Source: Candidatus Aerophobota bacterium (GTDB lineage: Bacteria > Aerophobota > Aerophobia > Aerophobales > B3-G15). From it: a DNA stretch of 10,834 nucleotides. The DNA lies in NCBI GenBank assembly GCA_030607765.1, contig JAUWJJ010000012.1, positions 1-10,834 of the forward strand, in the 5' to 3' direction. Under the pieces are notes generated by a model, which was given only the letters and a program-made list of their open reading frames with translations, was not told the DNA's origin and searched no databases. This document shows, one piece after another, positions 1 to 10,834 of the stretch; the stretch's first letter is position 1, and every line of letters begins with the position of its first letter. A program made the translations under genes and the position numbers.

Positions 1-396
1 AGCAGATTTCTTATAGAAATATTTACGGCTTTTATTCACTCTGTTAAACGGTTAAATACCGCTCTCGGGAAAATAGAAATAGACCGAGAGAGAATGAGGA
101 AAAATTTGAATTTTAGTAAGGAGTTAATTGTTGCCGAGCCTTTATATATTCTTTTGTCAATTAATGGTCATCCTGATGGATATGGATGTGTACGCAAGCT
201 TTTAGCAAAATCCCGAAAAGAAAAGCGGAGCTTAAGAGAACTTATATGGGAGGATGAGGAGGTTAAATTGTTTCTCGCAAAGATTAACGAGAGGCAAAGA
301 AAAGTGCTAAATAACCCTGAAGAATATATTGGTATTTCCAGAGAGAAGACCGAAAATATTTGTGAATTCTGGGAATCCTCTATAGAAAATTTTTAG
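1..396 (+). CDS. Adenylosuccinate lyase-type enzyme, C-terminal fragment
   Basis: The frame is open from base 1, so the gene begins upstream of the window; about 131 residues up to the TAG stop are visible. The methionine at base 94 is internal, because the open frame before it (SRFLIEIFTAFIHSVKRLNT...) continues the same helical domain. The fragment looks like the helical C-terminal domain of adenylosuccinate lyase: an ERMRKNL segment, then LIVAEPLYILL, NGHPDGYGCVRKL, a LRELIWEDEEV segment and a final PEEYIGISREKTE stretch. In that family the enzyme eliminates fumarate from adenylosuccinate and SAICAR in purine synthesis. The catalytic loops lie in the missing part, so a related lyase with another substrate cannot be excluded. 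A second member of the same superfamily (aspartase-like) starts at 10006. The family call is fairly firm; the purine role is less so. Confidence 0.72.
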   Translation, partial: SRFLIEIFTAFIHSVKRLNTALGKIEIDRERMRKNLNFSKELIVAEPLYILLSINGHPDGYGCVRKLLAKSRKEKRSLRELIWEDEEVKLFLAKINERQRKVLNNPEEYIGISREKTENICEFWESSIENF

Positions 397-567
397 GATC
401 TTACCCACCAAAGGGATTTTTTAGATGGAAACAAACTCATTAAACTGTAAAATAATTACAAATTTTTAAGAGTGCGTTCACGGTGGAGGGGATAATATTT
501 CTTTTATTTCTCCCGAAAGCCTCTTGAAATCTAATTTACTTTCAATTTTTCTGATCTAACGCGCCTC

Positions 568-598
568 TTGACAAAAAATAAAGACGTGCTAATAATAT
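568..598 (+). promoter_or_regulatory. Sigma70-type promoter, copy 1
   Basis: A perfect -35 box TTGACA (568-573) is followed by an AT-rich -10 region. The options are AATAAT at 591-596 (17-base spacer) or TAATAT at 593-598 (19-base spacer). The -35 context CTCTTGACAAAAA recurs as CTCTTGACGAAAAA near 1168. No gene follows directly; the next structure downstream is the hairpin at 654-683, so any product would be a short RNA or a longer leader for the gene at 799. Confidence 0.42.
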
Positions 599-653
599 AA
601 AATGGATTAGATCTTTGGTATGAAGAGGCTAATAATCATTCTGTCATTCAGTA

Positions 654-683
654 TTTATTTTAAGTTTTTGAACTGAAAATAAA
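654..683 (+). terminator. AT-rich hairpin, possible terminator or operator dyad
   Basis: TTTATTTT (654-661) pairs with AAAATAAA (676-683). After an A/G mismatch, AGTT (663-666) pairs with AACT (671-674) around a TTTG loop. A short TTTT run follows at 686-689. The stem is nearly all A-T, so it would be a weak terminator for RNA started at 568. It ends only 4 bases before the next -35 box (688), so it could equally be a protein-binding dyad controlling that promoter. Confidence 0.3.
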
Positions 684-687
684 AATT

Positions 688-715
688 TTGACAGTTTGAT
701 AAAACATATTATAAT
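688..715 (+). promoter_or_regulatory. Consensus sigma70 promoter for the 88-residue gene
   Basis: Perfect TTGACA (688-693) and perfect TATAAT (710-715) boxes are separated by 16 bases. Transcription would begin near 722 and give a leader of about 75 bases before the ATG at 799. This is the best promoter match in the window and suggests that the small downstream gene is really expressed. Confidence 0.68.
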
Positions 716-720
716 AAACT

Positions 721-756
721 GAAAGAAATTATTCAACCAGTAAGGAGAGTAAAATT
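721..756 (+). repeat. Shared leader repeat, copy A
   Basis: The block holding GAAATTATT, a variable few bases and then TAAGGAGAGTAAAATT recurs almost unchanged at 1215-1249, each time just downstream of a strong promoter. Copy A is followed by a degenerate echo of itself at 767-781 (AAGAGGGTAAATTTT) and not by a start codon. The AAGGAG core looks like a ribosome binding site that has lost its gene here. Confidence 0.55.
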
Positions 757-798
757 TTAAGGAGTTAAGAGGGTAAATTTTAGGGCACAGAGGAAAGA

Positions 799-1065
799 AT
801 GAACGAACAAAAAAATAATATTCAAAGAAGTTTAGGAAGAATAGAAAGCGATATAAAAGCTATGAGAGTTGATATTACCGAGACTAAACAGGATGTAAAG
901 AATTTAGCTAAAAAAGTAGAAATCCTACCAGTTATTAAAAAACAACTGGAAAATCATCTAAAGCATCACCAGATTAAATCAGACCGATGGTTTAAAATTT
1001 TAGTTATTATTCTAAACGCAGGAGTATTTGCTCTTTTAGGATATTTGGTTAGTTTAGTAAGATAA
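799..1065 (+). CDS. Small coiled-coil protein with C-terminal membrane helix
   Basis: The gene encodes 88 residues. Residues about 5-50 are a heptad-rich charged helix (QRSLGRIESDIKAMRVDI...VKNLAKKVEIL) typical of a coiled coil. A basic, histidine-rich linker (KHHQIKSDR) follows, then one hydrophobic helix at about 65-86 (WFKILVIILNAGVFALLGYL) and a short basic tail. The layout matches small phage haemolysin XhlA-like or holin-accessory proteins and many unnamed tail-anchored bacterial proteins; I cannot separate these. The start is supported by AGAGGA at 789-794, five bases before the ATG, and by the consensus promoter at 688. There are no neighbouring phage genes. Function is unknown: the topology is read from the sequence and any lysis role would be guesswork. 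Confidence 0.68.
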   Translation: MNEQKNNIQRSLGRIESDIKAMRVDITETKQDVKNLAKKVEILPVIKKQLENHLKHHQIKSDRWFKILVIILNAGVFALLGYLVSLVR

Positions 1066-1113
1066 AAATTATATGTAAAATATTTTTAAAGTTTTTAGTT
1101 TTTCAAAGATTTT

Positions 1114-1164
1114 TCACTCAATTTAGCATCTGACAAGGAAAAGAGCGAAAAAAATTTTGAGTGA
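1114..1164. repeat. Spaced inverted repeat upstream of a promoter
   Basis: TCACTCAA (1114-1121) and TTGAGTGA (1157-1164) are a perfect 8-base inverted pair separated by 35 bases. The right arm ends 5 bases before the -35 box at 1170. It could be a spaced operator pair or the closing stem of an RNA from the gene ending at 1065. No T-run follows, so it is not a classical terminator. Confidence 0.35.
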
Positions 1165-1169
1165 CCCTC

Positions 1170-1196
1170 TTGACGAAAAAATATATGTACTATAAT
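1170..1196 (+). promoter_or_regulatory. Sigma70-type promoter, copy 3
   Basis: TTGACG (1170-1175) and a perfect TATAAT (1191-1196) are separated by 15 bases, slightly short of the 17-base optimum. The surroundings resemble the promoter at 568 (CTCTTGAC plus A-run). It would start RNA near 1203, running through leader copy B to the terminator at 1333-1370. Confidence 0.52.
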
Positions 1197-1214
1197 ATAA
1201 ACCGAAAGATTAAA

Positions 1215-1249
1215 GAAGAAATTATTTAGTCATTAAGGAGAGTAAAATT
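1215..1249 (+). repeat. Shared leader repeat, copy B
   Basis: This matches the block at 721-756: GAAATTATT, then a few variable bases, then TAAGGAGAGTAAAATT. Here the AAGGAG (1235-1240) sits 9 bases before a GTG codon at 1250, a proper ribosome-binding arrangement. The two copies suggest a duplicated promoter-leader cassette. Confidence 0.55.
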
Positions 1250-1342
1250 GTGGAAAAGGTTTATAGCTCTCTCTCTCTCGAGAATAGGTTAGTTTTTTTA
1301 AGTAGAGATAATTTTAATAAAGTAAATTTAAGGGATAGGTAG
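1250..1342 (+). CDS. Possible 30-residue peptide (or the body of a small RNA)
   Basis: A GTG at 1250 with AAGGAG nine bases upstream opens a 30-codon frame reading MEKVYSSLSLENRLVFLS then RDNFNKVNLRDR, with its TAG stop inside the left arm of the terminator at 1333. The frame sits in a complete short transcription unit: promoter 1170-1196, predicted RNA of about 165 bases, and strong terminator. The peptide is not recognised, has no membrane helix, and is too short for coding statistics to decide. Alternatives are a regulatory RNA without translation, or the remnant of a longer gene lost from a duplicated cassette. Confidence 0.28.
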   Translation: MEKVYSSLSLENRLVFLSRDNFNKVNLRDR

Positions 1343-1370
1343 TGCTTTTTGCATTGCCTATCCTTTTTTT
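1333..1370 (+). terminator. Strong Rho-independent terminator
   Basis: GGATAGGTAGTGC (1333-1345) pairs with GCATTGCCTATCC (1351-1363) over 13 pairs, two of them G-U, around a TTTTT loop. A run of T's follows directly (1364-1370). It closes the short unit started at 1170 and separates it from the solute-binding protein gene. Confidence 0.88.
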
Positions 1371-1378
1371 ATTTAATA

Positions 1379-1407
1379 TTGATTGAAAAGGTGAGAAAAG
1401 ATAGAAT
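1379..1407 (+). promoter_or_regulatory. Likely promoter of the solute-binding protein gene
   Basis: TTGATT (1379-1384) and TAGAAT (1402-1407) are separated by 17 bases, placed just after the terminator at 1333-1370. It would give a leader of about 185 bases before the ATG at 1600. The boxes are only fair matches, but position and spacing fit. Confidence 0.38.
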
Positions 1408-1599
1408 AAATGGCCGAAAAGGAGGTGGATGAAGGTAGGTAGGCCAATCTATCTTGGAAAAAAGGAAAACTTTTTAAAAAGAGAAGTGTCGAAAGTTTAA
1501 TTTCTCTTTTAAGAGCTTTCCACAGAAAAATGAACCACGTCAAACCAAAGGAATTTAGTTTAAGGATTTTAAATTACATCATACAGGAGGTAACAAAAA

Positions 1600-3513
1600 A
1601 TGATACGAAAGTTAACAATGTTGCTTTTAAGTGGGGCAATTTGTTTATTGGGAGTAATCCCAGTGTTAGCACAAAGTCAATATGGACAATATTCTACTAT
1701 AGGGGAATATGAAAAAGCTACAGGTAATAAAATAGAAAAATTTAATGAAGCTCCTGAGTTAAAAGTAAAGGTAGCTGCTGGTGAGCTTCCTTCAATAGAG
1801 GAAAGACTTCCTGAGGAGCCAGTGGTAGTAGAACCGGTAGAAGAGATTGGACAATATGGAGGAACCTGGCATAAAGTAGTTACAAGAGCTGGGGATATTA
1901 TGCTAAATTCTCGGCAGGGATATGAGGCTCTTGCCCGCTGGGCTCGCGATGCTATGACCGCAATTCCTGGAATAGCTAAAAGTTGGGAAATTTCAGATGA
2001 AGGGAAAACTTTTACTTTCTATTTAAGAAAAGGAATGAAGTGGTCTGATGGAGAGCCTTTCACTGTTGATGATATCATGTTCTGGTATGAGAATATTATG
2101 CTTAACAAAGAACTCACTCCTGTTTTTCCAAAGTGGCTTACAGTTGGGGGAGAACAAGTAAAAATAGAAAAAGTAGATGATTATACGATTAAATTTGGCT
2201 TTACCGAGCCATACGGGCTATTTCTCGATAACCTCTGCTTTAACGGAATTGGAATGGCTGTTCCCAAGCATTACATGAAGCAGTTTCATCCCCGTTATAC
2301 CTCAAAAGAAAAGTTAGAAGAGATGGCTAAAAAGGAAGGATTTAAATTTTGGTATCAATTATTTCCGGTAAAGAATAACCTTAATGAAAATCCTGAACTT
2401 CCTACCATTAGATCCTGGAAAATAAAGGTAGGTCCTCCTGCTACTCGTATGATTGCGGAAAGGAATCCTTACTACTGGAAAGTGGATCCTGAAGGAAATC
2501 AACTCCCCTATATTGACCGAATTACTTTTGATTTGATAGGAAGTGCAGAAACGGCGAATTTTAAAGCAATAGCAGGCGAATTAGATATGCAAATGCGGTA
2601 TATGAGTCTATCAAACTTTAGTCTCTTTCTGATAGAGAGGGAAAAAGGAGACTACAGAGTTTTAAGATGGTGGAAAAAACCTCTTCCTATTACTGTTAAG
2701 GAACTTTATTTGGAATATGATCCTAAACGAGCAAATGAGCTTTTGGATGAGATAGGCTTAAAGTGGGATACGAACCGTGAATATCGTCTGCGGCCTGATG
2801 GTAAGACTTTGTCTGTGGTTATTAATACTTATGGTGCTGAGGAAATCGGGGGTACAGTTGATGAGTATGAATTAGTAAAAGGTTATTGGAAAGAAGTTGG
2901 GATTAAGGTTGATGTAAAATCCGAGGATAGAACATTATGGGTATCTCGAATGTTAGCAAGTGAACACGAGATAGGTGGTTATGGAAGATTGTACTTTAAT
3001 CAAAATTGCAAAGCCCCTGTTCTGCGGGAACTTTTTCAGAATAAAAAGTTCCGTATCGCTCTTTCTTTAGCTATAAACCGGGAAGAGATAAATGAATTCT
3101 GTTATATGGGAATAGCTAAACCTGCTTCTAAACGTTACGTCACGCACTGGGAAGTTGATCCTATATGGTATGTCCCTACAGCTACAAATTGTTATTTTGC
3201 TCCTCTTTATGGTCTTTGGTATGCATCCAATGGAAAAAGTGGTGAAGAGCCCACAGGGGATTTAAGAAAAGTCCAAATATTGTACGATAAGTTGAAGGTA
3301 ACTGTGGATGAAAAAGAAAAGCGTAAACTATCTGATGAGATTGTGCGCCTCAATGCGGAGAATATATGGTCAGTTGCTACTATTTTGGAGTTTAGTCCTG
3401 TTATAGTGAAGAATAATTTCCGAAATGTTCCCGAAGAGGGAAATGATTATGACTGGCGAACAATGGTACCAGGGTATGTTAATCCAGAACAATTCTTCAT
3501 CAAACAGAAATAG
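1600..3513 (+). CDS. ABC transporter solute-binding protein, family 5 (Opp/Dpp type), with reordered blocks
   Basis: The product is a 637-residue periplasmic binding protein that would deliver a peptide-like solute to Opp/Dpp-type permeases. Residues 1-24 form a signal peptide (basic start, hydrophobic core, VLA/QS cleavage) without a lipobox cysteine. Family signatures include GTWHKVV, LARWARDAMTAIPGIAKSW, GKTFTFYLRKGMKWSDGEPF with VDDIMFWYE, YYWKVDPEGNQLPYID, and the C-terminal GLWYASNGKSGEEPTG and VKNNFRNVPE. AGGAGGT (1585-1591) supports the start. Oddity: in the family the block ending in FRIALSLAINREEI normally comes before the EYDPKRANELLDEIGL and ELVKGYWKEVGIKV blocks. Here residues 463-510, carrying the former, come after residues 361-462, carrying the latter, with the frame unbroken. 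Length is normal, so the blocks seem exchanged and not lost. The fold may be compromised. The family call is firm. Confidence 0.92.
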   Translation: MIRKLTMLLLSGAICLLGVIPVLAQSQYGQYSTIGEYEKATGNKIEKFNEAPELKVKVAAGELPSIEERLPEEPVVVEPVEEIGQYGGTWHKVVTRAGDIMLNSRQGYEALARWARDAMTAIPGIAKSWEISDEGKTFTFYLRKGMKWSDGEPFTVDDIMFWYENIMLNKELTPVFPKWLTVGGEQVKIEKVDDYTIKFGFTEPYGLFLDNLCFNGIGMAVPKHYMKQFHPRYTSKEKLEEMAKKEGFKFWYQLFPVKNNLNENPELPTIRSWKIKVGPPATRMIAERNPYYWKVDPEGNQLPYIDRITFDLIGSAETANFKAIAGELDMQMRYMSLSNFSLFLIEREKGDYRVLRWWKKPLPITVKELYLEYDPKRANELLDEIGLKWDTNREYRLRPDGKTLSVVINTYGAEEIGGTVDEYELVKGYWKEVGIKVDVKSEDRTLWVSRMLASEHEIGGYGRLYFNQNCKAPVLRELFQNKKFRIALSLAINREEINEFCYMGIAKPASKRYVTHWEVDPIWYVPTATNCYFAPLYGLWYASNGKSGEEPTGDLRKVQILYDKLKVTVDEKEKRKLSDEIVRLNAENIWSVATILEFSPVIVKNNFRNVPEEGNDYDWRTMVPGYVNPEQFFIKQK

Positions 3514-3525
3514 AATCTTTAAAAG

Positions 3526-3570
3526 GGAAGCTCTCTAAAAGTTTAGGAGCTTCCATTTCTAAGTTTTTTT
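3526..3570 (+). terminator. Rho-independent terminator after the binding protein gene
   Basis: GGAAGCTC (3526-3533) pairs with GAGCTTCC (3547-3554). An inner CTAA/TTAG extension surrounds an AAGT loop, with one bulged T. Seven T's lie at 3564-3570, nine bases beyond the stem, a little far for a textbook terminator. It separates the binding protein from the following operon. Confidence 0.68.
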
Positions 3571-3599
3571 GATAGATTTTCTTTAATATAAAAGGTTAA

Positions 3600-3635
3600 G
3601 ATTGACACGTCGCTATCGCTCTTCGCAATGACAGT
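3600..3635. repeat. Short dispersed GATTG...CGCAATGAC repeat
   Basis: The segment from GATTGACACGTCGC to TTCGCAATGACAGT is much richer in G+C than its surroundings. It resembles the widespread intergenic repeat whose other strand reads GTCATTGCGAG-AGCG-AGCGACG-CAATC, seen in many unrelated bacterial genomes. Only one copy lies in this window and its terminal inverted repeat (ATTGC/GCAAT in better copies) has decayed on the left. Recognition is from memory of the motif, not from a search. Confidence 0.6.
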
Positions 3636-3729
3636 GGTATACGTGCTTTAGTGAATATTTACGAATTTGGAATGAAAGGAATATTTAAATTAGGTTGGAT
3701 AAAGCTAATAAAAATGGAGGTAGGTAAAA

Positions 3730-5094
3730 ATGAAAGTAGGATTTGGGAAACAAGATATCACTCCTGACTTAAAATCACCTATACCTGGTCCGGCGGGAGT
3801 TGATACTGAACGAGAATTTATTCTTGACGATATCTGGACGAGAGCTTTAGTATTTAAGTATGAGAATAATGTGGTGATTTTAGTGGCTGCGGATATCCCT
3901 AATTTTCATGAGAAAGACAGGGAAGATCTTATTAAGGAGATAGAAAAAGTATGCAATATTAAGAAATTTAAACTGGTATCTCATTGTGTGCATATGCACC
4001 AGGCCCCTAATGTATGCTGGAATTCTTTTAGTATGATCAATAAAGAAGGTGGTTATTCTATAAATGAAAAGTATTATAGAGCTTTCTTAAATAAAACTGC
4101 CTTAGCAGCAAAAGAAGCATTTAAAAATCTTGAAAATTTCCAGATAGAATATGGAGAAGCAGAGGTTAAAGGAATTGAAAGTAATAGAAGGATAATGGAG
4201 CCTGATGGAAATATAAGGTTAAGAGGTTCAAGACCTTCAAAAGAACTAAGAGAACTCCCTGAAGGACATATTGACCCAATGGTAAGAGTATTTTACCTAA
4301 AAAGAAAAGATAAAAAGAATATAGTTTGGGCTAATTATAATGGTCACCCTACTGCCACAGGAGGAGATGCAGCCCCATTTGTAAGCGGTGATTTTCCTGG
4401 ACAGGCGTTAAGAATTTTAAAGAGAGAGAAATCTGAAAATGAATATATTTATATGATGGGCCCAAATGGAAATTTAAATCCGGGGAAGTATATAACCGGG
4501 GATTCGTTTAACTTAGAGGACAGAATAAAAGATAGGGACCGGATGGGTAGAATTTTAGCTGAAAGCATAAAAGTGGCAATAAATAAGGCCGAAAAGCTAA
4601 AGATGGGTCCTCTTAAATTTAAAAAGGAGAGACTTCTACTTTTACATAAAGAAAAAGATTTTCCAACTTATAAACAAGCTTTAGAGCAACATAAAGAAGC
4701 TGTGAAAGAAATGATAGAAGTGCATAAGAGAGGTGAAAAACTTTCTCGTGGAGGAAAGATAAGATTTACTCACCGTATACTTTATTATTATAAAATTCTT
4801 GAAAATGGTAAGATCCCTGTTTATATATCTGCTATGAAAATTGGAGACCTTAATGTTGTATTTTATCCGGGAGAAATATTTCTTGAAGCAAGTGATATGA
4901 TAAGGAAAAATTTTCCCGAAAAAAAGATATTTGCTGTGGCTCTTTGTGATGGATTATTTGGTTATGTTATAACTGAAGACTGTTATGAAACAAGAAGACA
5001 TGGATATGAATATACAGCCACATTATTAGCAAAAGGGTCTTTTACGGCAATAGTTAATAAATCGATACAAATGCTGAAGGAAATTAACAATTAA
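3730..5094 (+). CDS. Cytoplasmic neutral ceramidase-like zinc hydrolase, paralogue 1
   Basis: The product has 454 residues and resembles the neutral/alkaline ceramidase N-terminal domain family, zinc amidases that hydrolyse an amide bond. Signatures in order: GFGKQDITP at 4-12, HMHQAPN at 88-94 (His88, His90), GHPT with His206, GDFPG at 220-224, GPNGNLNP at 244-251, YPGEIFLEAS with Glu382, and HGYEYTATL with Tyr426. The His, His, Glu, Tyr set matches the zinc ligands known in bacterial ceramidase. The ceramidase GDVSPN serine motif is GNLNPG here, so ceramide is unlikely to be the substrate. There is no signal peptide, unlike true ceramidases, so it should act in the cytoplasm. GGAGG at 3716-3720 supports the start. 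It heads a close-packed gene run (35 bases to the amidohydrolase) and has a paralogue at 8596. The true substrate is unknown. Confidence 0.8.
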   Translation: MKVGFGKQDITPDLKSPIPGPAGVDTEREFILDDIWTRALVFKYENNVVILVAADIPNFHEKDREDLIKEIEKVCNIKKFKLVSHCVHMHQAPNVCWNSFSMINKEGGYSINEKYYRAFLNKTALAAKEAFKNLENFQIEYGEAEVKGIESNRRIMEPDGNIRLRGSRPSKELRELPEGHIDPMVRVFYLKRKDKKNIVWANYNGHPTATGGDAAPFVSGDFPGQALRILKREKSENEYIYMMGPNGNLNPGKYITGDSFNLEDRIKDRDRMGRILAESIKVAINKAEKLKMGPLKFKKERLLLLHKEKDFPTYKQALEQHKEAVKEMIEVHKRGEKLSRGGKIRFTHRILYYYKILENGKIPVYISAMKIGDLNVVFYPGEIFLEASDMIRKNFPEKKIFAVALCDGLFGYVITEDCYETRRHGYEYTATLLAKGSFTAIVNKSIQMLKEINN

Positions 5095-5129
5095 AGTTTA
5101 TTATTTACATAAGTATTTAAGGTGATAAT

Positions 5130-6356
5130 ATGCTAATTAAAAATGCAAATTTAATTGATGGAAAAACAAATGAAATTAAATTGAACATTGCCTTAGTAAT
5201 TAAGGATGAGAGAATTTATAAAATTATTCCTGATAATACTTCCTCAAAAGAAGGAGAAGACATAATCATAGATGCCCAAGGAGGAACCATCCTTCCCGGA
5301 CTTTTTAACTTACATTCTCATATTCACCGAAGACATTTAAGTTGGTTTAAAAATGATAATCCTTTGGAACCATTTAGAATTGTACACCCGAGAGTAGAAA
5401 GATTGCCAATACATGATGCATTATTCTTTGCTCTTAAAAATGCCTGGACCGAGCTTTTTATGGGTATTACAACCATAAGGGATGCTGGCTCGAGAGATCA
5501 TTTAGCTACAATCTTGAGAAATTTATTTGCTGATGGTTTATTTAATGGGCCCAGGATTATATCCAGCGGAAAAATCATTAGTATGACCGGGGGTCATGAA
5601 GAAAGTATATCTACAAGAGAATGTGACGGTCCTGATGAAGTGCGTAAGGCAACACGCGAGCAATTCAAAGCCGGTGCAGATTGGGTTAAATTTTGTGCAA
5701 GTGGAGGGTTGGCTGGTATGCCAGATAAGGAAAACCCTCATATGATTGAATTTAGCTATGATGAGCTTAAGGCAGGCATTGATGTGGCCCATAAAAGATT
5801 CAAAAAAGCCTTAGCTCATGCCCATGCAACAGAAGCTATCAAAAATGCTGTACGTGCAGGAGTAGATACTATAGAGCATGGGATGTATTTAGATGCTGAA
5901 GCCATTGAAATGATGATAAAGAATAAAACAGCTCTGGTCCCAACAGTTTCAGGAATTTATCGCTATGCAAAACTCGAGGAGGAAAGTGGGAATATAGATT
6001 TTTCAAAAATGTTGATGGCAGAAGTGGTTGTGCCACATAAAAGGAGCGTTAAAAAGGCGTTTAAGGCAGGTATCAAAATTGGAACCGGAAGCGATACTTT
6101 AGGAAATATTGTAGATGAAATAGAAATATTTAAAAAAATAGGTTTCTCATCAATGGAGGCAATCCAATCAGCTACCAGGGTATCTGCTGAGATACTTGGA
6201 TTAAATGAAATATTAGGAACAATTGAGGTAGGCAAAATTGCTGATATTATTATCATAAATGGCGATCCACTACAAAATTTAAAATGTTTACGGAATATAT
6301 CATATGTAATAAAAGATGGTGAACTAGTAAATCCTTCATGGTGCCTGAACTTATAA
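5130..6356 (+). CDS. Metal-dependent amidohydrolase (dipeptidase/imidazolonepropionase-like)
   Basis: The product has 408 residues with the amidohydrolase-superfamily barrel and flanking beta domain. N-terminal strands end in ILPGLFNLHSH, where His62 and His64 are the usual metal pair. GADWVKFCASGG carries Lys187, the probable carboxylated bridging lysine. His230 (ALAHAHATEAI), His250 (GVDTIEHG) and Asp322 (GTGSDT) complete the site, and the tail IEVGKIADIIIINGDP is typical. Order and spacing match the Xaa-Pro dipeptidase/imidazolonepropionase-related branch, which includes cytoplasmic dipeptidases and N-acyl amino acid hydrolases. The residue before the HxH motif is Asn60 where Asp is common. 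The start has AAGGTGAT at 5119-5126. It lies between a ceramidase-like gene and the permeases, so its substrate probably enters by the transporter. Exact substrate not readable. Confidence 0.86.
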   Translation: MLIKNANLIDGKTNEIKLNIALVIKDERIYKIIPDNTSSKEGEDIIIDAQGGTILPGLFNLHSHIHRRHLSWFKNDNPLEPFRIVHPRVERLPIHDALFFALKNAWTELFMGITTIRDAGSRDHLATILRNLFADGLFNGPRIISSGKIISMTGGHEESISTRECDGPDEVRKATREQFKAGADWVKFCASGGLAGMPDKENPHMIEFSYDELKAGIDVAHKRFKKALAHAHATEAIKNAVRAGVDTIEHGMYLDAEAIEMMIKNKTALVPTVSGIYRYAKLEEESGNIDFSKMLMAEVVVPHKRSVKKAFKAGIKIGTGSDTLGNIVDEIEIFKKIGFSSMEAIQSATRVSAEILGLNEILGTIEVGKIADIIIINGDPLQNLKCLRNISYVIKDGELVNPSWCLNL

Positions 6357-6456
6357 GCTTGATGCCATGTTGGTAGTAGTGTTTGGTGAGGGATATGTAG
6401 CTTACTAATAGTTCATTATTGACTTATTCAACTCGTTTCTAAGGAGGATTTAAAAG

Positions 6457-7449
6457 ATGTTTTCCTATATTGCCAGACGAATTCTTTATATGATTCCTAC
6501 CCTTTTAGTAATCTCCATTATTAGCTTTACTCTTATTCAACTTCCCCCTGGAGACTACTTAACCTCTTATATAGCCCGGTTAACCGAGACCGGGGAATCA
6601 GTAGATGAAGCAATGATGGCTTCGCTAAAAAAACGCTACGGATTAGAGCAACCAATCTATGTGCAGTATTTTATGTGGATAAAGGGAGTTCTTCAAGGAG
6701 ACTTTGGTCAGTCCTTTGAATGGAATATGCCTGTAAGTAAATTAATATGGGGGCGACTGGCACTTACAGTAATTATCTCTCTTTTTAGCCTTATCTTTAC
6801 CTATATTGTAGCTATTCCCATAGGAATTTATTCTGCTACTCATCAATATTCATTAGCTGACTACTTCTTTACCTCCACTGGTTTCCTCGGGTTAGCCACT
6901 CCTAATTTCCTTTTAGCATTAGTCCTAATGTTTCTTTTTTATAAGTATTTTGGTCTTAGCGTAGGCGGTCTTTTCTCACCAGAGTTTATAGAAGCATCCT
7001 GGAGCTGGGCTAAAATTGTAGATATGATGAATCATATGTGGATTCCGGTGATAGTTATTGGGACAGCAGGAACTTGTGGGCTTATCCGTGTTATGCGCGG
7101 TACTTTATTAGACGAGCTTCGGAAACAATATGTAATTACTGCCCGAGCTAAAGGGGTTGGCGAAAAAAAGCTTTTATTTAAGTATCCTGTAAGAATAGCT
7201 ATTAACCCAATAATTAGCACCATAGGTTGGACCCTTCCCGGCATTATTTCTGGAGCAACTATTACCGCGATAGTACTCAGCTTACCTACTACAGGACCTT
7301 TACTTTTAAAAGCTTTGATGTGTCAGGATATGTACTTAGCGGGAAGCTTTATTCTAATTTTAGCTACCTTAACCGTGATAGGAACCTTAATCTCAGATAT
7401 TTTGTTAGCCTGGCTTGATCCCCGAATCCGTTATGAAGGGAGAACATAA
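6457..7449 (+). CDS. ABC transporter permease, DppB/OppB type
   Basis: The product is a 330-residue inner-membrane permease subunit of a peptide-type importer. The N-terminal helix (about 9-29) carries YIARRILYMIPTLLVISII, followed by an external segment with RYGLEQPIYVQYFMWIKGV and GDFGQSF typical of the family. Further helices lie at about 101-122, 142-164, 194-212, 252-280 and 294-318. The EAA coupling loop that contacts the ATPase is at about 221-246 (LRKQYVITARAKGVGEKKLL). It ends with LDPRIRYEGRT, a usual DppB terminus. AAGGAGG at 6441-6447 supports the start. The next permease begins two bases after the stop, so the pair should be translationally coupled. A 100-base gap precedes it, without a clear promoter. 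Confidence 0.94.
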   Translation: MFSYIARRILYMIPTLLVISIISFTLIQLPPGDYLTSYIARLTETGESVDEAMMASLKKRYGLEQPIYVQYFMWIKGVLQGDFGQSFEWNMPVSKLIWGRLALTVIISLFSLIFTYIVAIPIGIYSATHQYSLADYFFTSTGFLGLATPNFLLALVLMFLFYKYFGLSVGGLFSPEFIEASWSWAKIVDMMNHMWIPVIVIGTAGTCGLIRVMRGTLLDELRKQYVITARAKGVGEKKLLFKYPVRIAINPIISTIGWTLPGIISGATITAIVLSLPTTGPLLLKALMCQDMYLAGSFILILATLTVIGTLISDILLAWLDPRIRYEGRT

Positions 7450-7451
7450 GC

Positions 7452-8585
7452 GTGAAGCTTTTAAAGAAAAAAGTTACTCTGGATAGAAAAACTACTTCTT
7501 TTGAGGAAGAATATTATATAGCCTCGCAATGGCAGCTTATGTGGAGAAAATTTAAAAAACATAAGCTTGCTTTGGGTAGCATCGCTGTGCTTGTTATTTT
7601 ATATATAGGGGGAATTTTTTGTGAGTTTGTTACTCCTTACGGCCTTGAGGCACGTCAAATTAAATATATTTATGCTCCACCTCAACATATTCATTTTTTT
7701 GATGAGAAAGGGTTTCATATTCATCCCTTTGTTTACGGAATTAAACGTAAGATTGATATAGAAACCTTGCAAAAGATTTATAGTGAAAATAAAACAAAAA
7801 AATATCCTATCTATTTTTTTGTTCGTGGAGAAAAATATAAAATGTGGAATTTATTCCCGATGGATATTCACCTCTTTGGAGTAAAAGATGAGGGAGTTAT
7901 TTTTCTTTTAGGGACAGATCGTATGGGTAGAGATATGTTTTCACGAATTGTCTACGGAGCACGCATTTCTTTATCTATAGGATTAGTTGGTGTTTTCTTA
8001 AGCTTAGTTATAGGACTAACCTTAGGGGGAATATCTGGATATCTTGGTGGAATAACGGATACCATTCTTCAGCGAGTTATAGAAATTTTAAGATCTTTTC
8101 CTACTATCCCTCTCTGGATGGCTTTAAGTGCCGCTGTACCACCTCAGTGGCCACCACTGAAAGTTTACTTCGGAATCACAGTGATGCTCTCCCTCATCGG
8201 ATGGACAGGATTAGCCCGCGTGGTTAGAGGAAAACTCTTAGCCTTAAGGGAAGAGGATTACGCCATGGCGGCTAAAATAGCCGGGTGTAAGGATACGCGA
8301 ATAATTAGCCGACATCTTCTTCCCGGTTTTTTAAGTTATATAATTGTCTCTATGACGTTGTCTATACCTGCCATGATTTTGGCAGAAACTTCTTTAAGTT
8401 TTCTTGGCCTTGGTCTTCGTCCTCCCATAACCAGTTGGGGAGTGCTTCTTAGAGAGGCACAGAATGTGCGCACTGTTGCTTTACATCCCTGGCTTATGCT
8501 TCCTGTACTTTTTGTAATCATCACCGTCTTAGCCTTTAATTTCTTAGGAGATGGCCTACGTGATGCCGCAGATCCCTATAAATAA
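7452..8585 (+). CDS. ABC transporter permease, DppC/OppC type, with long external loop
   Basis: The product is the 377-residue partner of the DppB-type permease. The first helix is at about 38-60. The GTDRMGRDMFSR motif at 154-165, helices from about 171 onward, an EAA loop at 265-291 (REEDYAMAAKIAGCKDTR...), SLSFLGLGLRPP and the ending GDGLRDAADPYK are all standard for the family. Between helix 1 and the GTDRMGRD motif lies an external region of about 90 residues rich in aromatic and histidine residues (APPQHIHFFDEKGFHIHPF), longer than in compact DppC proteins but seen in a known long-form subgroup. The start is GTG, supported by GAAGGGAG at 7435-7442 inside the previous gene. The next gene starts ten bases after the stop. 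Confidence 0.93.
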   Translation: MKLLKKKVTLDRKTTSFEEEYYIASQWQLMWRKFKKHKLALGSIAVLVILYIGGIFCEFVTPYGLEARQIKYIYAPPQHIHFFDEKGFHIHPFVYGIKRKIDIETLQKIYSENKTKKYPIYFFVRGEKYKMWNLFPMDIHLFGVKDEGVIFLLGTDRMGRDMFSRIVYGARISLSIGLVGVFLSLVIGLTLGGISGYLGGITDTILQRVIEILRSFPTIPLWMALSAAVPPQWPPLKVYFGITVMLSLIGWTGLARVVRGKLLALREEDYAMAAKIAGCKDTRIISRHLLPGFLSYIIVSMTLSIPAMILAETSLSFLGLGLRPPITSWGVLLREAQNVRTVALHPWLMLPVLFVIITVLAFNFLGDGLRDAADPYK

Positions 8586-8595
8586 GGAGAAAAAA

Positions 8596-9948
8596 ATGAT
8601 CAAATGTGGTTTTAGTAAGAAGATAATAACACCTTCTTTGGGTACACCTTGTTCCTTAGGGGTGGACAATGAAGCAGAAGAGATATTTGACGATATCTAT
8701 ACCCGGGTAATAGCTCTACAGGATAAAAGTAAAGTTATCTTTTTAATTTCTGCTGAGGTGATAGCTCTTTCCATGGAGGATAGAACTGACATAAGAAATG
8801 CTATTGCTAAATTTATTAATATGGAAAATTTCCAGATAGTAATTCATACTATTCATAATCACCAGGCGCCGAATGTTAGATGGCACGTGTTTTCAACTAT
8901 CAATAAAGATGGTTATCAGGCTATTAGCGAAGATTATTATAATTATTTTTTAAAGCAGAATGCTAAAGCTGCCAAAGAAGCATTAGAAAATATTGTGGAA
9001 TTGGAATCAATTGGCTATGATGAAAGCGAGGTTCGAGGAATTCAAAGCAACCGGCGAATTATTACCTCTGATGGTAAAATTATTATGAGATACAGCCGCC
9101 CTCCAGAGGATTTAAAGAAGTATCCAGAAGGTCATATAGATCCGAAAGTAAGATGTATGTTTTTAAAGAGGGAAAAGGCGAAGAGTATTATTTGGATAAA
9201 TTATCATGGTCATCCAACCTGCACAGGGGGAGATGAAGCACCTTATATTACTGGAGATTTTCCTGGCTGGGCTCTTCACCTTTTAGAAAAAGAGATGCCT
9301 CAATACGAATATATTTATATGACCGGTCCGCATGGAAATCTCAATCCCGGTAAATATACTACCGGAGACCCTAAAGAAGTAAAGGATAGAAAACATGACA
9401 GAGATAAGATGGGGAAAATATTAGCTGAGGGAATAAAGAGAGCTTTAGGAAACACAGAGTTTAACCAGGTTCATCAATTTAAATTTTTAAGAGAAAAATT
9501 ACTCTTGAAATTAAAGTCTGATTTCCCTTCAAAAGAAAAATCGGAGAAAGAATATCAAGAAGGTTTAAAGGAAATTAAAGAAGCTCATCGTCAAGGAAGG
9601 AAGGTTACAGGAGGTGGTTTGATAAGGAGAGCTCAGGCAAAAAGGGCTATTTATTATAATCTAATAGAGGGGAAGTTGCCCACTTCTGTGTCAGCACTAA
9701 GGATTGGAAATTACTATGCTGTATTTTTCCCTAGCGAGATTTTCTTGGAAGCAAGCAAAGAAATAAGAAAAATTTTTCCGAAGAAAAAAATATTAACAGT
9801 TTCTATGTGTAGTGACTATATCTGGTATTTACCTACCCCTCAGGCCTATCGCGAAGGAGGATATGAAGTAAATTCATCTCTAGTTGATTCCTCAAGTTTC
9901 AGTGCATTGGTAGAGGCGGGGGAAGAGTTAATAAAAAATCTTGATTAA
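8596..9948 (+). CDS. Cytoplasmic neutral ceramidase-like zinc hydrolase, paralogue 2
   Basis: The product has 450 residues and is collinear with the protein at 3730, with about half the positions alike by eye. An upstream ATG at 8551 overlaps the permease gene. I prefer the ATG at 8596 because AAGGAGA lies at 8583-8589 and MIKCGFSKKIITP then aligns with the start of paralogue 1. Key residues are kept: His87 and His89 in HNHQAPN, His206 in HGHPT, GDFPG, GPHGNLNPGKY, Glu381 in PSEIFLEAS and Tyr423 in GGYEV. The PTPQAYREGGYEV segment is closer to the family norm than in paralogue 1. There is no signal peptide. It lies ten bases behind the DppC gene, so it is surely in the same operon. It is a predicted zinc amidase of unknown substrate; the serine of true ceramidases is Asn here. 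Confidence 0.8.
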   Translation: MIKCGFSKKIITPSLGTPCSLGVDNEAEEIFDDIYTRVIALQDKSKVIFLISAEVIALSMEDRTDIRNAIAKFINMENFQIVIHTIHNHQAPNVRWHVFSTINKDGYQAISEDYYNYFLKQNAKAAKEALENIVELESIGYDESEVRGIQSNRRIITSDGKIIMRYSRPPEDLKKYPEGHIDPKVRCMFLKREKAKSIIWINYHGHPTCTGGDEAPYITGDFPGWALHLLEKEMPQYEYIYMTGPHGNLNPGKYTTGDPKEVKDRKHDRDKMGKILAEGIKRALGNTEFNQVHQFKFLREKLLLKLKSDFPSKEKSEKEYQEGLKEIKEAHRQGRKVTGGGLIRRAQAKRAIYYNLIEGKLPTSVSALRIGNYYAVFFPSEIFLEASKEIRKIFPKKKILTVSMCSDYIWYLPTPQAYREGGYEVNSSLVDSSSFSALVEAGEELIKNLD

Positions 9949-10005
9949 GAATGATTAAGTAAGACAAACGGAGTATATTAGCTTACTGAGGAGAGGTTTA
10001 ATAAC

Positions 10006-10834
10006 ATGCGAATAGAACAAGATATGTTAGGTGAAAAAAGTATCCCGGATAAATATTATTATGGAATCCATACAAAGAGAGCTTTAGAAAACTTTCCTAT
10101 TTCCCATTATAAATTAAGTGATTTTCCTGAGTTGATACAAGCCTTAATCTATATCAAAAAGGCAGCCGCCTATGCAAATTTCAAAATAGGCTTACTGAGT
10201 AAAAAAATTTATGGAGCTATAGAAGATGCTTGTAATAGGATTGTAAACGATGGATTGTGGGATCAATTCCCCGTTGATATGCTTCAAGGAGGCGGGGGAA
10301 CCTCAACTAATATGAATGCAAATGAGGTAATTGCCAATATAGCTGGTGAATTACTGGGAGATAAGAAAGGGACCTACAAGAAAGTTCATCCTATCCAGCA
10401 TGTTAACCTCAGTCAATCTACGAATGATGTGTATCCTTCAGCAATTCGAGTAACCTTATTTAGTAAGACAAAGGAATTAGCATACGTTCTTAAAAATTTA
10501 GCTAATATCCTCGAAAACAAAGAGAAAGAATTTTCCTCCATTGTAAAACTGGGAAGAACCTGCCTTCAAGATGCTGTCCCCATGACTTTGGGACAGGAGT
10601 TCTCAGGTTATAAGTGTTTAATTTTGAGAACTACATCGGATCTTGAAAAGGAACTTCCTCGCATACGAGTATTAAATATTGGTGGTACGGCTGTGGGAAC
10701 AGGTATCGGTTGCAAGAAGAATTTTACAAAGTATGCTTTGGAATATTTAAATAATATTACCAAAGAAAATTTTCAAGTTGCTGATAATCTTTTTGATGCT
10801 ACTCAAAACTGTGATGTTCTTCTTTCATTATCGG
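10006..10834 (+). CDS. Aspartate ammonia-lyase-like enzyme, N-terminal part
   Basis: The frame runs off the window end; 276 residues are visible of a family usually about 460-470 long. Motifs of the fumarase/aspartase superfamily appear in order: LGEKSIPDKYYYGIHTKRA at 9-27, QGGGGTSTNMNANEVIAN at 94-111, HVNLSQSTNDVYPSA at 132-146, LGRTCLQDAVPMTLGQEF at 182-199, NIGGTAVGTG at 224-233 and NLFDATQN at 261-268. SQSTND and GTSTNMN favour aspartase over fumarase. Aspartase reversibly removes ammonia from aspartate to give fumarate. Oddly, the GRT motif continues with Cys186 where aspartases carry Gln and fumarases His, so substrate preference may differ. GAGAGG (9991-9996) and GAGGAG (9988-9993) support the start. 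The 57-base gap from the hydrolase suggests the same operon. The catalytic SS loop is beyond the window. Confidence 0.85.
   Translation, partial: MRIEQDMLGEKSIPDKYYYGIHTKRALENFPISHYKLSDFPELIQALIYIKKAAAYANFKIGLLSKKIYGAIEDACNRIVNDGLWDQFPVDMLQGGGGTSTNMNANEVIANIAGELLGDKKGTYKKVHPIQHVNLSQSTNDVYPSAIRVTLFSKTKELAYVLKNLANILENKEKEFSSIVKLGRTCLQDAVPMTLGQEFSGYKCLILRTTSDLEKELPRIRVLNIGGTAVGTGIGCKKNFTKYALEYLNNITKENFQVADNLFDATQNCDVLLSLS

Follow-up and report, generated by a model that had tools for sequence, protein, structure and literature searches.

The window, a stretch of 10,834 nucleotides from a Candidatus Aerophobota bacterium (assembly GCA_030607765.1, contig JAUWJJ010000012.1), encodes a 637-residue protein that matches the SBP_bac_5 family of solute-binding proteins (PF00496; 189.2 bits against a curated cut-off of 32.4, 1.6e-55). 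The match is split into three stretches. The N-terminus is hydrophobic and a signal peptide was assigned by eye. The predicted product is a secreted solute-binding protein of family 5 (cluster C), belonging to an ATP-binding cassette (ABC) importer of Opp/Dpp type. We divide the protein into four blocks named after the canonical order of the family, A-B-C-D; in the window, the blocks are read as A-C-B-D (Table 1).

Table 1. Features of the window with their coordinates and, where given, the basis of their assignment
Feature	Position	Strand	Basis
Strong ribosome-binding site AGGAGGT, ATG 8 bases downstream	1585..1591	+	Read in sequence
SBP_bac_5 solute-binding protein gene, 637 aa, order A-C-B-D	1600..3513	+	Open reading frame, Pfam, structure alignment
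Block A, residues 1-357: N-terminal part with signal peptide (by eye); residues 1-80 nearest to canonical P0003	1600..2670	+	
Joint 1 (A to C), residues 358-368; differs in P0001 only by I364A	2671..2703	+	
Block C, residues 369-457; third in canonical order	2704..2970	+	
Joint 2 (C to B), residues 458-463; no difference in P0001	2971..2988	+	
Block B, residues 464-508; second in canonical order	2989..3123	+	
Joint 3 (B to D), residues 509-522; differs in P0001 only by A509T	3124..3165	+	
Block D, residues 523-637	3166..3510	+	
Two Opp/Dpp-type permease genes (BPD_transp_1)	6457..8585	+	Pfam

Order of the segments and their joints

Alignment to the structure 5IPW, followed in the order of 5IPW, pairs residues 33-358 of the window protein with 6-332, residues 460-523 with 337-401, residues 368-455 with 403-486 and residues 547-636 with 544-633. 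Relative to 5IPW, the second and third pieces of the window protein are thus out of order, and the SPH1118 structures 7VER and 7VEQ reveal the same exchange. These alignments bear out the claim of a sequence-only reading of this DNA that two conserved blocks are swapped. That reading had also held that the frame is kept at the three junctions, and indeed the reading frame is uninterrupted across all of them. Over the whole chain the change of order is a non-cyclic permutation, while lobe III taken by itself shows a local circular permutation of B-C. It is not a circular shift of the whole chain of the TpMglB-2 type, the N-terminal A and the C-terminal D being unmoved.

Summed over the three joints, the linkers of the window protein amount to 31 residues, compared to 35-63 (median 44) between the same anchors in 137 canonical proteins (of 138; one was removed by the anchor filter). 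Because the sum falls below the canonical range, the joints are not a clean reshuffle. The proposed normal total length accordingly holds for the whole protein and fails for the linkers, and the claim that restoring A-B-C-D yields sensible seams is only partly right, since the canonical linkers are not regained. The words TGGAA and AAACCT do occur where the sequence-only reading had placed them, but as guides of recombination they do not stand out: the joint regions have words of at most 6 to 8 bases in common, which does not exceed the length found at random gene positions (P 0.48, 0.71 and 0.23, one value for each of three region sizes). On this ground, recombination guided by such repeats was rejected.

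Occurrence and maintenance of the exchanged order

A second sequence has the same order. P0001, from Joint Genome Institute (JGI) data, represents a cluster with 4 members on 2 contigs, of which the longest has 17,267 bases. It is identical to the window protein at 599 of 637 residues (94%), with 38 substitutions, no gaps and the same three joints. The window also encodes two ceramidase-like proteins, of which the second is identical to P0146 at 415 of 449 residues; P0001 and P0146 both list a longest contig of 17,267 bases and probably share one contig that is syntenic to the window. For the first ceramidase-like protein, the relative P0140, whose longest listed contig is 13,758 bases, is identical at 421 of 453 residues.

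To place this order among homologues, 5.8 billion proteins were searched and the best 120 of the 7,891 homologues inspected for the positions of their blocks. A-B-C-D was found in 119 of them and A-C-B-D in one, P0001. A query of residues 420-512, covering the passage from C into B, returned 24 hits out of 56 candidates, 19 of the hits being new and all of these canonical; P0001 scored 181 bits and the next best hit 98 bits. Across both searches, 138 of the 139 homologues inspected are canonical. At 88 genomic loci, 70 open reading frames (ORFs) had a hit to B or C, and all 68 that contained both blocks are canonical as well, the protein and ORF sets overlapping in part (e.g. L055 and P0003). 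From these counts we conclude that the swapped order is derived and, within this sample of sequences, confined to two near relatives; further swapped members may exist among the homologues beyond the best 120 of 7,891. Matches running from C through B were absent from 17 genomes of the phylum of an Aerophobetes relative (6 of which matched) and, among the matches listed, from 3 further genomes. The viral_contigs search returned no relative of the binding protein whatever, and the best DNA match to the swapped gene in genome G021 (76%) is a canonical gene on contig C124.

The strongly conserved columns of the moved blocks are largely kept: 93% of 15 columns in B (median of the other homologues 100%) and 92% of 26 in C (median 96%), which ranks the window protein near the middle of the homologues for both. 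As a neutral yardstick we used contig C66 of G021, with 91-93% DNA identity to window positions 6438-10834. Synonymous divergence (dS) between the window and G021 was 0.16-0.35 over four gene pairs (pooled 0.27), two of the G021 genes being split by frame changes; this dS is a proxy from syntenic genes of G021 rather than of the genome of P0001, and stands in for the ratio of nonsynonymous to synonymous divergence (dN/dS). Neutral simulation of 637 codons gave about 289 changes (251-328) and about 19 stops at dS 0.27, about 199 changes (168-231) and 14 stops at dS 0.164, and about 108 changes (82-142) and 8 stops at dS 0.08, whereas 38 changes and no stop are observed. In B and C together, 65, 46 and 25 changes were expected at these three values and 14 are observed. 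Neutrality fits only with dS near 0.03, where 5% of runs are without a stop. Given this low protein divergence a neutral relic is unlikely, and the swapped gene looks maintained, with its open frame, ribosome-binding site, conserved columns and few changes.

We therefore consider it probable, from the sequences compared, that an ancestral in-frame exchange of two inner segments took place in a family 5 binding protein and has been kept under purifying selection. The sequence-only reading, which had weighed an in-frame block exchange against an artefact, is supported in the former by the joints shared with P0001 and by the low divergence, which disfavours a neutral relic. The swapped protein would still adopt the two-lobed fold of a binding protein, its lobe III being connected in a new order, and would pass its ligand to the permeases. 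We also lean, with less assurance, towards a natural, functional, non-cyclic segment permutation inside a well-known fold, for which the canonical relative P0002, 60-76% identical block by block, offers a comparison.

Several observations weigh against this interpretation. Of the same 317 ceramidase-like residues, the window shares 288 with P0146 and 277 with G021, so the genome of P0001 may be somewhat closer to the window than G021 is, and the pooled dS may be somewhat overestimated. Between the window protein and P0001, B and C together changed at 14 of 146 residues and D at 2 of 117 (p 0.008), a ratio reached by none of 221 canonical pairs. The faster change makes some relaxation or adaptation in the moved blocks possible; relative to A, the ratio of 1.63 is not significant (p 0.17) and is reached by 4.5% of the 221 pairs. 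Substitutions avoid conserved columns in the right direction without reaching significance (p 0.09 overall, 0.27 for B and C). Finally, AlphaFold2, given a shallow alignment, failed to assemble the complete window protein, with a predicted template modelling score (pTM) of 0.40 against 0.65 for a canonical control. The sequence-only reading had named, as a finding that would refute it, close homologues of the same order together with a confident fold, which would mark a normal subfamily. Half of this is seen: P0001 is one close homologue with the order, but the predicted fold is of low confidence.

Three alternatives have to be weighed against these results. The rearrangement could be real and the canonical binding function lost, through early gene decay or a partly unfolded lobe III. 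The low pTM and the faster change of B and C would agree with such a loss, as would near-invariant residues altered in both sequences (A472 in the window, D in 99% of homologues; in P0001, C488, L in 92%, and N306, D in all). We nevertheless judge it unlikely, as the 38 changes, with no stop or gap, compare with a neutral expectation of 199-289 (dS 0.16-0.27), and the 14 in B and C with 46-65. A segment-swapped dimer, in which each lobe III is completed in trans by a second copy, would meet the constraint on all blocks without short new connections, and the AlphaFold2 single chain did leave the fold unclosed. Yet in that single chain, domain II and local elements of lobe III were predicted with confidence, and the lobe III elements from C, B and the first part of D reached a predicted local distance difference test (pLDDT) score of mostly 70-94, which makes the dimer very improbable. 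Least credible is an assembly or binning artefact behind the order, which we rejected because the distinct sequence P0001 has the same joints despite 38 residue differences, and which neither explains the missing linker residues by reordering alone nor gains from shared words at chance level, even though the assessment used assembled sequences alone, the swapped order was seen in only one other protein among the 139, and the 4 members of the P0001 cluster may include the protein of the window itself.

Origin of the rearrangement and neighbourhood of the gene

For the exchange we favour a route in which part of the gene, B-C, was duplicated in tandem and two deletions ensued. In a single ancestral rearrangement, B-C would have been duplicated, either inside a single gene or across paralogous copies, and in-frame deletions would then have removed the leading B and the trailing C, leaving the linkers about 13 residues below the canonical median. 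No duplication intermediate was found.

Concerning the route only, and compatible with the other readings, the recombination could have joined different paralogues instead of acting within one gene, a possibility that we hold tentatively and at slightly less than even standing. Five of six related genomes contain 49-171 matching stretches, several per gene, and canonical pairs such as P0076/P0077 differ in A (11%) and not in B and C (0%). Window residues 1-40, 41-80 and 81-120 are 93, 85 and 55% identical to canonical P0003; the 5' end of the binding-protein gene (1600-1839) is, by this comparison, a mosaic shared with P0003, and the fall in identity indicates that paralogues recombine in this family. 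The trees point the same way: for block A the window falls with the P0003 group (83/89), for C and B with L051 (94/96) and the P0002/L050 group (88/85). Against different paralogues as sources, none of these groupings meets the threshold of the tree program (95/80) in both values, the tree of block D places the window without a supported grouping, and by BLAST score P0002 is the nearest canonical relative for A and C, and for B and D it either ranks first or falls within 2 bits of the first.

Around the gene, several features were noted. The leader upstream of it (1400-1545) has about 75-89% DNA identity to several sites in the genomes G021, G019 and G001, a distribution that identifies it as a putative interspersed leader element. 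Downstream of the gene, a stem-loop followed by a T run was seen by eye at 3526-3571, with a loop exceeding the limit of the terminator scan, and the short intergenic stretch 3600-3668 matches six places in G021 (contigs C195, C185, C232, C170, C166 and C242), in which it resembles a dispersed small repeat. No Rfam family reached its gathering score in the window.

The two permeases presumably serve the binding protein, as judged from their proximity; no ATPase gene was found among the window ORFs examined. Other ORFs are an adenylosuccinate lyase-like end, an 88-residue ORF without Pfam match, an amidohydrolase and a partial aspartate ammonia-lyase. The two ceramidase-like (PF04734) proteins, at 3730-5094 and 8551-9948, flank the amidohydrolase and the two permeases and have no signal peptide evident by eye. 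In G021, positions 1-5300 of locus L108 (on C66) are syntenic to window 6438-10834, the match to the window beginning at base 577. Upstream of the first permease gene, L108 contains an ORF weakly resembling an IS110 transposase (below the Pfam cut-off), and its ceramidase-like and aspartate ammonia-lyase ORFs are split. An IS110-family ORF also lies in L109, beside the canonical binding-protein gene.

Comparison with known systems

How far segment order can change before the fold is lost is a long-standing question, and work on it has relied on engineered proteins and on remotely related pairs of structures. In the window protein, a natural exchange of two segments within one lobe of a large binding protein seems to have occurred and its product to have been retained. 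If this is true, the event, its joints and the tolerance of the fold become open to direct study, given that fairly close canonical relatives exist, and the swap may inform where binding proteins tolerate cutting and rejoining. A permuted family 5 binding protein was not found among the titles and abstracts listed in the literature searched, subscription journals being largely outside its reach.

With the SBP_bac_5 proteins of cluster C, such as 5IPW (OppA) and 7VEQ/7VER (SPH1118), the window protein has in common the four blocks, most conserved residues and adjoining Opp/Dpp permeases; unlike canonical members, it has B and C exchanged and a linker sum below all 137 measured. The standard model of permutation by duplication, as given in PMC3320104, is a tandem duplication after which redundant parts are lost. 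The route proposed for the window gene likewise combines duplication and loss, with the difference that the duplication would be partial and internal and that the parts lost would have to be inner ones. Non-cyclic permutations are described, in PMC2096629, for the Arc repressor by design and, possibly as a natural case, for AML1/CBF versus riboflavin synthase. Like these, the order change of the window protein is no simple circular shift of the whole chain; unlike them, it can be recognised directly from the sequences and concerns members of a single gene family. The nearest natural parallel is TpMglB-2 (Tp0684), a cluster B ligand-binding protein that, according to PMC4990184, is naturally circularly permuted and binds glucose. 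Both are natural permutations in a ligand-binding protein of an ABC importer. In TpMglB-2, the same paper describes a circular permutation of the whole chain, in another fold cluster, in many species and with a solved structure; in the window protein, two inner segments are exchanged with the ends fixed, in two proteins known from sequence alone. Natural permutation of binding proteins is thus already known from TpMglB-2, and what is new is the exchange of inner segments in family 5.
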